A stretch of DNA of 64,000 nucleotides from assembly GCA_017937125.1 (NCBI GenBank), contig JAGBEH010000001.1, positions 744,001 through 808,000 of the forward strand, written 5' to 3'. Positions 7,956 through 12,979 of this stretch are shown piece after piece (position 1 is the stretch's first letter; every line of letters begins with the position of its first letter). This DNA is from Alistipes sp. (lineage in GTDB: Bacteria; Bacteroidota; Bacteroidia; Bacteroidales; Rikenellaceae). The notes under the pieces are model-generated. The model did not search any database. It was not told where the DNA came from and worked only from the letters and a program-made list of their open reading frames with translations. A program made the position numbers and the translations under genes.

Positions 7956-8855
7956 ATGTGGTTGGCGCTCGCTTTCGTTTCGGCCGCGTTTCTCGGATTG
8001 TATGATGCGGCGAAGAAAATGGCACTGAGTTCCAATGCCGTACCTCCCGTATTGCTGCTCAATACGTTGTTTTCCGCATTGCTTTTTACGCCGTTCATCC
8101 TGTCGGCGCGATGCGGTTCGGGGTGGTTCGACGGTACCGTCCTTTACGTGCCCGAGGGCGATGCGTCGGCTCATGCGGCAGTTGCGATAAAGTCTGCTAT
8201 GGTGCTTGCTTCGTGGGTGTTCGGATATTACGGAATGAAACATTTGCCCATAACTATCGTCGGGCCGATAAATGCTACGCGTCCCGTACTTACTCTTATC
8301 GGGGCGATGCTCGTTTTCGGCGAGCAGCTGAATGCGTACCAGTGGGTCGGTGTGGCGCTGGCGCTGGTGTCGCTGTTTCTTCTCAGCCGTTCGGGCAAGA
8401 ACGAGGGGGTCGATTTCACGCATAACATATGGATCCTGTTTTTGGCTCTGGCTGCCGTAATAGGGGCTGCCTGCGGTCTGTACGACAAGTACATTATGCG
8501 GGATATGAACCCGATGTTCGTGCAGAGCTGGTATTCTTTCTACCAGTTCGTTATGATGGGAATAGCCGTTGCGGTCATATGGCTTCCCAACCATCGGAAA
8601 AGTTCGCCTTTCCGATGGTCGTGGGCCATACCCTGCATCTCTCTCTTTCTGTCGTGCGCCGATTTCGCCTATCTTACGGCGCTGAGCGACGGCGATGCGA
8701 TGATTTCGGTCGTGTCGATGATACGCCGCGGGTCGGTGCTCGTGTCGTTCGCTTGCGGGGCCTTGCTGTTCCGCGAGCGTAACTTGCGCAGCAAAGCCCT
8801 CGACCTCGTCTTCATACTCATAGGTATGATATTCCTCTATCTCGGCTCGCGTTAG
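7956..8855 (+). CDS. EamA/DMT-family membrane transporter
   Basis: A 299-residue very hydrophobic protein with about ten predicted membrane helices in two halves, typical of the drug/metabolite transporter superfamily (two EamA repeats; the conserved repeat end is visible in [31 protein letters not shown]). The substrate is unknown. Being 6 bases behind lysA suggests co-expression, so amino-acid or related metabolite export is one possibility (inference). Its stop overlaps the end of the convergent trpB2 gene by four bases. Confidence 0.85.
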
Positions 8856-10213
8856 ATCAACTTTTCGAGACGTTCGACGGTTTTCCTTATCTCCGCATCG
8901 CTCGGCGAATAATCCTTCAATGCCCCTGCGAGGTATTGCTCGTAGGCGTAAAGGTCTATTACCCCGTGCCCCGACAGGTTGAACAGGATGGTCTTGTCTT
9001 CTCCCGCCTCTTTGGCCTTGAGGGCTTCGCGGACGGCTACGGCGATGGCATGCGTCGATTCGGGTGCGGGAATTATGCCTTCGCTTTTCGCGAAGAGGAT
9101 TCCTGCGGCGAGAGTCTCGTTTTGGGCGACGGACTGGGCCTCGATAAGGCCGTCCTTGAGCAGCTGGCTGACTATGGAGCCCGCCCCGTGATAGCGCAAA
9201 CCTCCGGCATGTATGTTCGACGGCTGGAAATCGTGGCCGAGCGTGTACATCGGTATCAACGGGGTATATCCCGATACGTCGCCGAAGTCGTATTGGAATT
9301 CCCCGCGCGTGAGTTTCGGGCAGCTTGCAGGCTCTACGGCTATGACGCGTGTGGTTTTGCCCTCGGTGAGGTTCTTACGCAGGAACGGGAACCCTATGCC
9401 CGCGAAGTTGCTGCCGCCGCCGAAGCAGCCGATGACTATGTCGGGGTCGGCATCGGCCATCTCCATCTGCGCTATGGCTTCCTGCCCGATAATCGTTTGG
9501 TGGAGCAGTACATGGTTGAGTACGCTGCCGAGACAGTAACGTGTGTTCTCGGGGTGCTGCAAAGCCATTTCCACCGCTTCGGATATGGCGAGCCCGAGAC
9601 TGCCGGGGCATTCGGGGTCGCGTTCGAGCGCTGCGCGTCCCGAGCGGGTCATATCGGTCGGCGATGAGTAACATTCCGCCCCCCAGGTATTCATCATCAG
9701 TCGGCGATAGGGCTTTTGCTCGTAGCTTACCTTTACCATAAAGACTTTGACATCTATGCCGAAGTGCTGTCCTGCGAAAGCTATGGCCGAACCCCATTGC
9801 CCCGCTCCCGTTTCGGTAGTCAGGTGCTTGATTCCCTGCTCGTAGTTGTAAAAAGCCTGCGGGACGGCCGTATTCGGCTTGTGCGAGCCTGCGGGGGAAA
9901 CGCTTTCGTTCTTGAAGTATATTTTTGCGGGCGTGTCGAGCGCTTTTTCGAGACCGTATGCCCTGACGAGCGGTGTCGGACGCCATATCTTGTATATCTC
10001 GCGAACGGGGTCGGGAATATCTATGAACCGCTCTGCGGACATCTCCTGACGTATGAGTTCGTCGGCGAAGATGGTTCGCATCTGTTCGAATGTTACGGGC
10101 TTTTTCGTGGCGGGGTCCAGCGGCGGCAGCGGTTTTGTCGGCATGTCGGCCACGATGTTGTACCATTGGCGGGGCATCAGCTCTTCAGGGAGTTCGAATT
10201 TCTTGGTTTTCAT
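8852..10213 (-). CDS. trpB2: Tryptophan synthase beta-like protein, TrpB2 type
   Basis: A 453-residue PLP enzyme of the TrpB2 branch, which makes tryptophan from indole and serine, often without a TrpA partner. The PLP lysine is Lys111 in [11 protein letters not shown] (the TrpB2 form of the motif); [10 protein letters not shown], the phosphate loop [10 protein letters not shown] and the C-terminal LNLSGHG-like [10 protein letters not shown] are present. The length of about 450 with an N-terminal extension is typical of TrpB2, not of TrpB1 (about 400). The start at 10213 ([10 protein letters not shown]) is chosen; an in-frame ATG at 10252 lies inside the terminator stem. No other trp gene is nearby. 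The leader encodes a predicted tryptophan attenuator. Confidence 0.94.
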
Positions 10214-10238
10214 AATTTTGATATTGTGGATATAGATA

Positions 10239-10276
10239 TAAAAAAATCCCATTGTTCACGACGTAAACAATGGGAT
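10239..10276 (-). terminator. Attenuator terminator (3:4 hairpin) in the trpB2 leader
   Basis: On the minus strand ATCCCATTGTT pairs with AACAATGGGAT (11 bp, extended to 14 by three more pairs around a GTC loop), followed at once by seven T. It lies between the leader ORF and the trpB2 start, 26 bases from the ATG, so it must be bypassed for trpB2 to be transcribed from the leader promoter. Confidence 0.9.
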
Positions 10277-10339
10277 CGATGATTTCTGTTCCTGCGATGA
10301 TGCTATATATGCACACGACGATCTCGCTCATTGCCTACG
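10262..10339 (-). promoter_or_regulatory. Predicted antiterminator (2:3 pairing) of the trpB2 leader
   Basis: Minus-strand CGTAGGCAATG (10329-10339) can pair with CATTGTTTACG (10262-10272) over 11 bp with two G-U pairs. GATCG (about 10320-10324) can pair with CGATC (10274-10278). The second partner includes most of the terminator's 5' arm, so the two structures exclude each other. Region 2 lies within the leader ORF, a few codons after the Trp run. Confidence 0.75.
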
Positions 10340-10383
10340 TAAGTCAAGGAGCGCCACCACCAATATTGTGCATTGAAGATCAT
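10303..10383 (-). CDS. Leader peptide with three consecutive Trp codons (trpL-like)
   Basis: A 26-codon ORF on the minus strand, beginning MIFNAQYWWWRSL and ending RRVHI before TAG. Three consecutive TGG codons (10354-10362) occur at codons 8-10; Trp is the rarest residue in most proteins, so a run of three in a 26-codon ORF is very unlikely by chance. The ORF begins about 16 bases after the predicted transcription start and ends 26 bases before the terminator hairpin. Its second half encodes antiterminator region 2. It is the expected sensor of charged tRNA-Trp: stalling at the Trp codons would favour antitermination. It need not have any function as a peptide. Confidence 0.85.
   Translation of the reverse strand: MIFNAQYWWWRSLTYVGNERDRRVHI
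10325..10353 (-). promoter_or_regulatory. Predicted protector hairpin (1:2) of the trpB2 leader
   Basis: Minus-strand CGCTC, directly after the three Trp codons, can pair with GAGCG, with inner TTG/CAA pairs. It would sequester region 2 of the antiterminator unless a ribosome stalled on the Trp codons covers its 5' arm. Short stem, so moderately supported. Confidence 0.55.
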
Positions 10384-10405
10384 AATTGCTGTCTCGTTTC
10401 TTTTG

Positions 10406-10437
10406 CAAATATATGACATCGGTTTGTAAAATGCAAA
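10406..10437 (-). promoter_or_regulatory. Promoter of the trpB2 leader transcript
   Basis: On the minus strand TTTG (10434-10437), exactly 20 bases, TATATTTG (10406-10413). Transcription would start near 10400 and give a leader of about 185 bases before trpB2, long for this window and containing the attenuator. Confidence 0.8.
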
Positions 10438-10453
10438 TTCGGGAGGATTTTTA

Positions 10454-10484
10454 TTTCGATGTTTTATTAAAATATGTATCTTTG
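10454..10484 (+). promoter_or_regulatory. Putative promoter of pheT
   Basis: TATCTTTG at 10477-10484 with TTTC at 10454-10457 (19-base spacer), 32 bases before the pheT ATG and back to back with the trpB2 promoter. Confidence 0.6.
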
Positions 10485-10516
10485 TGTGTTTTTCCGAAAA
10501 ATAAAATTTACTGCAT

Positions 10517-12979
10517 ATGAATATCTCTTACAAGTGGCTTAAGAATTATATCGATACCGATCTGTCGGCCGAGGAAATTGCGGTTATACTTACCGATATA
10601 GGTCTGGAGGTGGAAAGTTTCGAGAAGATAGAGACGATACGCGGCGGATTGGCCGGCGTGGTCGTCGGCGAAGTCCTTACCTGCGTCGATCATCCCGACA
10701 GCGATCATCTCCACGTCACTACTGTGGATGTAGGCGGCGGAGAACCGCTGCAGATCGTATGCGGAGCGGCGAATTGCCGTGCTGGGCTTAAGGTCGTATG
10801 CGCTACGGTTGGTGCCGTGCTGTACCCTAACGGCGGAGACGAGGAGTTCAAGATCAAACGCAGCAAGATTCGCGGCGTGGAGTCGCTCGGTATGCTTTGC
10901 GCCGAAGATGAACTCGGCATAGGTACGGACCATGCGGGGATTATGGAGCTGCCGTCGGATGCTAAGGTCGGAATGCCTGCACGCGAATATTTCGGCATTC
11001 AGGATGATTATCTTATAGGTATCGGCCTGACGCCTAACCGTGTGGATGCCGCATCGCATATGGGTGTGGCGCGCGATCTGGCGGCTTATCTGCGCAGCCG
11101 CGGCAAGAACGTTTCGGTCAAACTGCCGAACGTGGACGATTTCAGGACTGATAACCGCGATCTCGTAATGGATGTCGCCGTGGAGAACTTCGAGGCCTGT
11201 CCGCGTTATGCAGGTGTTACGGTGACTGGGTGCAAGATAGCTCCTTCGCCCGAATGGATGCAGAATTACCTGCGCGCCGTGGGTATCAATCCCAAAAACA
11301 ATCTTGTGGACATAACGAATTTCGTATTGTTCGAGCTGGGGCAGCCTTTGCACGCTTTCGATGCAGCCAAAATCGACGGCAGGCGCATCATCGTCAAGAC
11401 CTGTGCCGAGGGGACGCCTTTCGTCACACTCGACGGCGTGGAGCGCAAGCTGTCGTCTCAGGACCTGATGATTTGCTCGGCGGAACATCCTATGTGTATT
11501 GCGGGTGTCTTCGGCGGGGCGGATTCGGGCATCGGCGATACCACGTCGGACGTATTCATCGAGTCTGCGTATTTCAATCCCGTCTGGGTCCGCAAGACGG
11601 CGAAACGCTTCGGTCTCAATACCGACTCTTCGTTCCGTTTCGAGCGCGGCATAGACCCCAATATGCAGGTGTATGCCTTGAAACGGGCCGCACTTCTGAT
11701 GAAGGAGCTGGCAGGAGGTTCGATTTCGAGCGACATTATCGATATTTGTCCCGTGCCTGCCGAAGATTTCCGTTTCGATATATCGCTGGCACGCGTAAAT
11801 TCGCTTATCGGCAAGGAGATTCCCGAACATACCGTTCGCGAGATACTTGCAGCCCTCGAGGTGAAGGTCGAGGCGGAAAAAGACGGAGTGTTGAGTGTGG
11901 CCGTACCGCCCTACCGCGTGGATGTGCGCCGCGAAGCCGACCTTATCGAGGATATTCTCCGCATATACGGCTATAACAATGTCGAGATTCCCGAACACGT
12001 CAATTCCACATTGTCGTATGTACAGAAGCCCGACAAACCTCATCTGGTGAATTCGGTGTCCGACTTCCTGACATCCCGCGGATTCACCGAGATAATGTCG
12101 AACTCCCTGACCAAGGGGTCCTATTACGAGGGGCTCGACTCGTATAAAGCCGAGAATTGCGTTCGCATACTCAACCCGCTGAGCGCCGATCTGAACGTTA
12201 TGCGGCAGACTTTGCTGTTCAATGCTATGGAGGCTGTGGAGTTGAACGCGAACCGCCGCAACGGCAATCTCAAGCTTTATGAATTCGGCAACTGCTATTT
12301 CTATAATGCGGAGAATGCCGATGCGGGAAATGCGCTTGCCCCGTATTCCGAGAATTTCCGTTTGGCCCTGACCGTAACCGGAGAATCCGTCGCGCAGAAT
12401 TGGAACGAAAAGGCGCAGAGAGCGTCGTTCTTTACGTTGAAAGCTGCCGTAGAGTTGATTCTCAAACGTTTCGGGCTCGATATTTACAAATTGAAAACGG
12501 AGACCCTGACGTGCGATATGTTCGGCGAGGCCGTCGCCCTGTATCTCAACGGTTCCGAATTGGCGAGACTGGGCGTTGTGAATACGAAGATTGTCAAGGC
12601 GTTCGGATTGAAACAGGAGGTATTTTTCGCCGAACTGGATTTCGACAAGCTGGCCAAGAGCACCAAGAAACATAAGATTGCGGCAGAAGAACTGTCCAAG
12701 TTCCCTGAGGTGCGCCGCGACCTTGCGCTGCTTGTGGATAAGTCTGTTACGTTCTCGCAATTGCGCGACATAGCGGTCGCGACCGAGAAGAAACTGCTTA
12801 AGAATGTCGCGCTGTTCGATGTCTATGAGGGCGACAAGCTGCCTGAAGGTAAAAAGTCTTACGCCTTGAGCTTTATCCTTGAGGATAAGACCCAGACGCT
12901 TAATGACAATATCATCGAACGGGTTATGTCCAACCTTCAGAAGCAGTTCGAACTGCGTGCCGGTGCGCAGATACGTTGA
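10517..12979 (+). CDS. pheT: Phenylalanine--tRNA ligase beta subunit
   Basis: An 820-residue beta subunit of the (alpha-beta)2 phenylalanyl-tRNA synthetase, full length for bacteria. From the N-terminus: the conserved start MNISYKWLKNYID, a tRNA-binding (EMAP/OB) domain at about 40-150 (VVVGEVLTCVDHPDSDHLHV), the B3/4 editing domain at about 210-390, B5, the catalytic-like core and a C-terminal ferredoxin-like anticodon-binding domain (ending near SYALSFILEDKTQTLND). The alpha subunit gene is not in this window, so pheS and pheT are unlinked here. A strong terminator follows. Confidence 0.97.
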   Translation: MNISYKWLKNYIDTDLSAEEIAVILTDIGLEVESFEKIETIRGGLAGVVVGEVLTCVDHPDSDHLHVTTVDVGGGEPLQIVCGAANCRAGLKVVCATVGAVLYPNGGDEEFKIKRSKIRGVESLGMLCAEDELGIGTDHAGIMELPSDAKVGMPAREYFGIQDDYLIGIGLTPNRVDAASHMGVARDLAAYLRSRGKNVSVKLPNVDDFRTDNRDLVMDVAVENFEACPRYAGVTVTGCKIAPSPEWMQNYLRAVGINPKNNLVDITNFVLFELGQPLHAFDAAKIDGRRIIVKTCAEGTPFVTLDGVERKLSSQDLMICSAEHPMCIAGVFGGADSGIGDTTSDVFIESAYFNPVWVRKTAKRFGLNTDSSFRFERGIDPNMQVYALKRAALLMKELAGGSISSDIIDICPVPAEDFRFDISLARVNSLIGKEIPEHTVREILAALEVKVEAEKDGVLSVAVPPYRVDVRREADLIEDILRIYGYNNVEIPEHVNSTLSYVQKPDKPHLVNSVSDFLTSRGFTEIMSNSLTKGSYYEGLDSYKAENCVRILNPLSADLNVMRQTLLFNAMEAVELNANRRNGNLKLYEFGNCYFYNAENADAGNALAPYSENFRLALTVTGESVAQNWNEKAQRASFFTLKAAVELILKRFGLDIYKLKTETLTCDMFGEAVALYLNGSELARLGVVNTKIVKAFGLKQEVFFAELDFDKLAKSTKKHKIAAEELSKFPEVRRDLALLVDKSVTFSQLRDIAVATEKKLLKNVALFDVYEGDKLPEGKKSYALSFILEDKTQTLNDNIIERVMSNLQKQFELRAGAQIR

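Follow-up and report, generated by a model that had tools for sequence, protein, structure and literature searches.

We found that trpB2, which encodes a stand-alone tryptophan synthase beta chain in an Alistipes sp. genome, is very probably controlled by a trpL-type, ribosome-mediated transcription attenuator, and that the gene, apparently transcribed alone, would allow tryptophan to be made from serine and neighbours’ indole when charged tRNA-Trp is scarce. The gene lies in a 64,000-nucleotide stretch of contig JAGBEH010000001.1 (hereafter the window). Our reading is based on the observed anatomy of the leader, its conservation and covariation among relatives, and gene content. Tandem Trp codons were found in the leader, a terminator was found between the leader ORF and the gene, and the antiterminator shares strand 3 with the terminator helix 3:4. 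The features are as follows:

10406–10437, minus strand: Bacteroidota-type promoter read from the sequence (TTTG at 10437–10434, 20-nt spacer, TATATTTG at 10413–10406), its consensus and spacing being what we take to be those of the phylum
10303–10383, minus strand: ORF of the leader peptide (26 aa and a stop), MIFNAQYWWWRSLTYVGNERDRRVHI; ORFs with Trp runs also precede related trpB2 genes
10354–10362, minus strand: Trp-Trp-Trp codons, the putative sensor codons; the run varies by whole codons in relatives
10325–10353, minus strand: protector hairpin (helix 1:2), present in the RNAfold minimum free energy (MFE) structure
10329–10340, minus strand: antiterminator 5' strand (strand 2), within the leader ORF; helix 2:3 covaries
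10261–10272, minus strand: antiterminator 3' strand (strand 3), doubling as part of the terminator 5' arm; from alignment and covariation
10240–10277, minus strand: intrinsic terminator, consisting of helix 3:4 and seven T (hairpin 10277–10245, T run 10246–10240), from folding and covariation
8852–10213, minus strand: trpB2, encoding a stand-alone beta chain of tryptophan synthase (453 aa and a stop), from NCBIfam profile scores

We infer that RNA synthesis would begin near 10400, the predicted transcript start, and that the leader ORF would be translated. If charged tRNA-Trp were abundant, the ribosome would clear the three Trp codons and protector 1:2 would refold behind it; terminator 3:4 would then halt RNA polymerase ahead of trpB2. 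If charged tRNA-Trp were scarce, the ribosome would stall at the Trp codons and hide the protector’s 5' arm, strand 2 would bind strand 3, and trpB2 would be read through. TrpB2 would then convert serine and indole from neighbours into tryptophan.

We folded the leader with RNAfold, as the initial annotation had proposed together with constrained alternatives. For 10405–10235 the fold had a free energy of −47.1 kcal/mol; 3 of 200 dinucleotide shuffles were equally low (z = −2.38), and the MFE structure of the segment contained the protector and terminator helices, each of which is mutually exclusive with the antiterminator. The antiterminator core consists of 12 consecutive pairs (2 of them G-U), 10340–10329 with 10272–10261, and falls, to within one base, inside the pairing originally suggested (10318–10339 with 10262–10278). 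When no ribosome was imposed, helix 1:2 formed (8 pairs) and the whole leader folded into protector plus terminator. When the RNA reached as far as strand 3 with a ribosome placed at the first or third Trp codon, helix 2:3 formed instead (11 pairs). The full-length MFE kept the terminator with every ribosome mask tried; thus, equilibrium folding is no proof of read-through, and the switch must be kinetic. Kinetic switching is a feature of the classical attenuation model.

One element of the initial annotation had to be abandoned, namely that a ribosome finishing translation would cover the antiterminator. The footprint of a ribosome extends about 15 nt to either side of its P site. Positioned at the stop codon, a ribosome would accordingly span approximately 10323–10293, which includes the 4-bp outer extension of the antiterminator (10323–10320) and leaves the core strand at 10340–10329 uncovered; the leader ORF contains the whole of this core strand and reaches its stop 23 nt later. 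In the masking folds, a ribosome held at the stop favoured 2:3 over 1:2 in the partial transcript, and the full transcript formed 1:2 plus 3:4. Because the partial transcript favours 2:3 in this state, correct termination must depend on timing or ribosome release, and what brings about termination once the ribosome has left must be protector refolding or timing, not a ribosome masking the antiterminator core.

The trpB2 start codon is the ATG at 10213. Its 453-residue product is TrpB2: it scored over both TrpB2 cut-offs in NCBIfam (NF009057, 720 bits, cut-off 366; TIGR01415, 631 bits, cut-off 519), far above its 146 bits against canonical trpB (TIGR00263), which fell under the cut-off of 392. 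The nearest solved structures are 6hul_B, 4qys_B, and 6hte_B. Because pheT (10517–12979) is divergent and an EamA-family transporter gene (7956–8855) is convergent, trpB2 is apparently a single-gene transcript and appears to be transcribed without partner genes. We also considered the hairpin as the terminator of pheT and rejected this, since pheT is divergent and the T run occurs on the minus strand only.

The 26-codon leader ORF with its three Trp codons proved to be as first described, and its Trp run is conserved. From the best 80 of 568 confirmed TrpB2 matches, 77 loci with at least 200 nt of upstream sequence were kept (L006, L055, and L074 were too short) and scanned for an ATG-started ORF of 7–45 aa within 300 nt 5' of trpB2, using dinucleotide shuffles and reverse complements as controls. 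In these 77 loci from the best 80 of 568, a leader ORF contained WW in 44 (0.65% of shuffles; 0/77 reverse complements), WWW in 32 (0.03%; 0/77), and W.{0,2}W in 46 (2.2%; 1/77); the remaining 31 loci lacked an ATG-started W.{0,2}W leader in that interval. A further 17 non-duplicate trpB2 loci came from whole genomes (20 G loci minus L100, with short upstream sequence, and the duplicates L094 and L098, L095–L097 having been removed earlier as duplicates); W.{0,2}W leaders were present in 13 and WW in 10. The run took the forms WW, WWW, WWWW, WSW, WWLW, and WRWRWW. These forms differ by whole codons, as expected if the codons count, beyond the RNA letters. One ATG ORF of the 46 (L060) was spurious, a TTG-started WWW leader being present instead, and L073 likewise had a WWW leader with a TTG start. 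Two trpB2 loci (L036, L057) carried a terminator and a leader-like ORF holding one Trp codon; possibly they are decaying attenuators.

Several Trp-codon candidates were discarded. We set aside chance as the source of the Trp codons: of the 7 occurrences of TGGTGGTGG in the source genome, all 6 outside this leader lie in same-strand stop-to-stop frames of at least 192 codons. A ‘PKWRNW’ leader that seemed to precede trpB2 at five loci from a single family was actually part of a tRNA-Leu gene (ARAGORN), and a WW ORF at L201 was taken as a piece of the upstream gene.

The W-leader rows numbered 60 (the window plus the sets of 46 and 13). Four without a terminator by scan (L014, L061, L088, L091) were dropped, leaving 56 leaders; three for which the scan took the wrong hairpin (L012, L060, L075) were then removed, leaving 53, and seven too divergent to align (L049, L052, L064, L087, L090, L093, L101) were removed to give alignment A1 of 46 leaders, in which L024 was retained though off by one base. 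The proposed promoter, which we could read as annotated, has counterparts among relatives: TAnnTTTG occurred from −70 to +12 nt around the leader ATG in 44 of the 56 leaders, compared with 5.1% of mononucleotide shuffles. In 42 of these 56, the segment pairing best with the terminator 5' arm (strand 2) began 14–20 nt past the last Trp codon. This duplex was significant at p < 0.05 in 29/56 and at p < 0.01 in 14/56 against mononucleotide shuffles, the leaders being related to one another; for the window’s own leader, p = 0.04. The place of strand 2 varies among relatives: it can lie within the ORF, as it does in the window, span the stop, or follow it.

An alignment had been proposed as a check for Trp runs and co-varying stems, and it yielded both, with helices 2:3 and 3:4 supported across the 46 leaders. 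In the antiterminator, 87.5% of cells were paired and 8 of 12 pairs showed changes on both sides; 0/500 shuffles matched its percentage or its covariation score, a comparison that ignores kinship among leaders. In the terminator, which had been annotated with its seven T just before trpB2, 92.0% of cells were paired and 11 of 14 pairs had changed on both sides, with 0/500 shuffles matching on all five measures (kinship again ignored). When the partners were slid by 1–3 columns, pairing fell to 32–51% for the antiterminator and to 34–55% for the terminator. The protector annotated at 10325–10353 held up as a clear fold in the window and fared less well over the 46 leaders: 73.1% of cells were paired and 5 of 8 pairs changed on both sides, 21/500 shuffles matched the percentage and 56/500 the covariation score (kinship ignored here too), and sliding by +3 gave a covariation score of 0.166, above the 0.158 of the proposed register, a shifted helix doing as well or better on some measures. 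A protector helix across relatives is thus weakly supported.

We then searched with R1, a covariance model for this leader type, which has no Rfam match here. In the source genome, R1 matched the trpB2 leader at E ≤ 0.1 and otherwise only the antisense of that hairpin. Of the 15 genus genomes that carry trpB2, 14 had the element directly 5' of the gene, and in the fifteenth (G012) the contig ends there; 12 of these 14 are members of the R1 training set and therefore match by construction. None of the 22 genus genomes without trpB2 gave a match at E < 0.001. A single match in the genus lay away from trpB2 (G026:C3, E = 4e-6), and no ATG-started W leader was found when it was read. Across 295 genomes of the order, 31 gave a match at E ≤ 0.001. 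We took 24 new loci from the order: in 13, a trp gene (5 trpB2, 6 trpB1, 2 trpE) was preceded by a leader with a W run; in 3, ilvD or ilvB was preceded by one with a Val run; and 8 weak matches had neither a Trp nor a Val leader and were rejected as resembling ordinary terminators. The leader of L165 equals that of L040 (training set), and that of L167 equals that of L052.

Read together, leaders of this kind precede other biosynthetic genes in Bacteroidales. Trp-run leaders were found before trpB1 (L141, L142, L158, L169, L174, L179, L180, L185, L186) and trpE (L168, L171), and Val/Ile-run leaders (e.g., MKLLNTVLVVVVVVVLKNIE) with competing hairpins before ilvD (L160, L166, L176) and ilvB (L170); L160, with an Ile/Val leader, is from a genome of the same genus; it and the trpB1 loci L141, L142, and L158 come in addition to the 24 above. 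The Trp model may have matched the ilv leaders because a GTG run looks like an out-of-frame TGG run. Gene identities were checked by profile: all 9 trpB1 products exceeded the TIGR00263 cut-off, the 3 ilvD products exceeded that of NF009103 and the ilvB product that of TIGR00118, and the three of five order trpB2 products tested (L163, L164, L172) exceeded both TrpB2 cut-offs; the 2 trpE products had TIGR00564 as best match, yet under its cut-off. Strand 2 paired with the terminator 5' arm at p < 0.05 in 2/3 trpB2 and 4/4 ilv leaders, and in 0/11 trpB1/trpE leaders. Five of these 11 paired with the terminator loop plus 3' arm at p < 0.05, L180, one of the five, doing so via another segment; perhaps the trpB1/trpE leaders use a different switch geometry.

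In three Dysgonomonas loci (L047, L056, L065), trpB2 sits within a trpB1-trpE-trpG-trpB2-trpD cluster, whose gene names were profile-checked for L047 and L065 (trpE, trpG, trpD) and assigned by reading for L056. Its position inside a trp cluster would explain why trpB2 has no leader of its own there. Both kinds of beta chain, trpB1 and trpB2, would share one operon in Dysgonomonas.

These data bear on whether the leader acts as a switch at all and, if so, on what it senses. A hairpin with a U run stands alone as a terminator, and the element might be a plain intrinsic terminator beside an unrelated small ORF, with no regulatory coupling; we regard this as extremely improbable, because the Trp run, the spacing of strand 2, and the 2:3 covariation are all kept far above chance. 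Nor do we find it credible, save as a very slight chance, that attenuation is real and the cue is a general slowing of translation or some signal other than tRNA-Trp charging. Any stall at codons 8–10 would yield the same fold, but Trp runs precede trp genes, Val/Ile runs precede ilv genes, and Trp-run length differs by whole codons. The trpL-type attenuation by Trp codons first proposed for this orphan gene was therefore upheld by conservation, covariation, and gene content.

Gene content was surveyed in the source genome (90% complete) and 36 further genomes of the genus, 37 in all. Neither trpA (PF00290) nor IGPS/trpC (PF00218) was detected in any of the 37, the source genome included. Canonical trpB was undetected in the source genome (90% complete), where the sole TrpB-like match is trpB2, and the source organism appears to have lost the tryptophan pathway. 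TrpB2 scored over the cut-off in 14/37 genomes, G015 had one further, fragmentary match where its contig ends, and the congener G007 had a TrpB match at the canonical level (173 bits). Tryptophanase (NF009709) was matched in 29/37 genomes, and the source genome (G000, 90% complete) gave no match to it. The likely role of TrpB2 is indole salvage, turned on when charged tRNA-Trp is scarce. In PMC11535334, a B. thetaiotaomicron TrpB2 homologue helped an E. coli trpA mutant to grow only beside wild-type E. coli, a benefit that its authors interpret as indole cross-feeding, and PMC11085991 refers to earlier studies of indole salvage that concern T. kodakarensis TrpB1 and TrpB2. It is nevertheless conceivable, if unlikely, that the attenuator is as described and TrpB2 serves mainly another reaction, e.g., serine deamination. 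TIGR01415 is only a hypothetical equivalog in NCBIfam with the protein name ‘TrpB-like’, and TrpB2 activity here is predicted from sequence; against this, trpB2 is under Trp-codon control, its Dysgonomonas counterpart sits in a trp cluster, and the B. thetaiotaomicron result points to indole. For indole salvage, a conserved Trp-codon switch together with no detectable trpA or trpC provides regulatory evidence for tryptophan as the product and imported indole as the substrate. The attenuator before trpB2 also offers a testable tie between indole cross-feeding and the tryptophan auxotrophy of gut bacteria.

In E. coli, trpL has a leader ORF with tandem Trp codons, followed in order by protector, antiterminator, and terminator, the last placed before the first structural gene. 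The trpB2 leader resembles it (RF00513) in its tandem Trp codons, in having a putative protector, the antiterminator, and the terminator in the same order, and in its terminator before the gene; unlike trpL, it has a one-gene target, a Bacteroidota promoter, and a strand-2 core wholly inside the ORF. The Trp_leader family RF00513 gave no match in 10100–10560 when all Rfam families were searched at E up to 5, no family matched at gathering score in 10 relative loci, and the T-box covariance model matched neither the whole window at gathering score nor 10100–10560 at E up to 5. Trp-run leaders before trpB1 and trpE in other Bacteroidales likewise have WW or WWW followed by a terminator just 5' of the gene, but differ in lacking the pairing with the terminator 5' arm (0 of 11 significant, as above).

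The kind of attenuator is already known; the novelty, within the material searched, lies in its target, lineage, and physiological reading. A 2004 study reportedly predicted amino-acid attenuators in Bacteroidetes/Chlorobi. Novelty at the level of the phylum is smaller than the initial annotation suggested because of these predictions, short ORFs in B. thetaiotaomicron, and the trpB1, trpE, and ilv leaders of Bacteroidales. What stands of that claim is that no description of trpB2 attenuation in Bacteroidota was found in the literature searched, where most subscription papers were missing. PMC7366714 describes the B. thetaiotaomicron ORFs as ‘reminiscent of leader peptides’ and places them in long 5' UTRs. 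The authors of PMC2965389 (2010) knew of no leader-peptide system beyond Proteobacteria and Actinobacteria, and PMC3766115 lists 48 Trp leaders for RF00513. Candidate actinobacterial attenuators are reported in PMC1262725 before trpB1EDGC and before a C. diphtheriae operon called trpB2A. These resemble ours as Trp-codon leaders with alternating hairpins; unlike in trpB2A, where trpB2 (so called by name) accompanies trpA, trpB2 stands alone here and trpA was undetected in the genome.

Lastly, we examined the 30 top-scoring loci from 71 TrpB2-bearing genomes of other classes of the phylum, two of which (L194, L198) had <100 nt upstream. W-rich leaders preceded trpB2 in 8 of the 30 (L187–L191, L193, L199, L200; L188 with a GTG start). 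Tentatively, and at somewhat less than even chances, a class of ribosome-mediated attenuators, as yet undescribed, may extend throughout Bacteroidota, some of its members using another antiterminator geometry; in gut species without the pathway, a sensor of tRNA-Trp charging would drive an indole scavenger, and neighbours’ indole would be used only when tryptophan is short. Five of the eight (L187, L188, L189, L191, L199) share a common terminator form, AGCCGTG...CACGGCTTT, that is unlike the Alistipes terminator, and the W-rich trpB2 leaders of these distant classes are possibly of independent origin.
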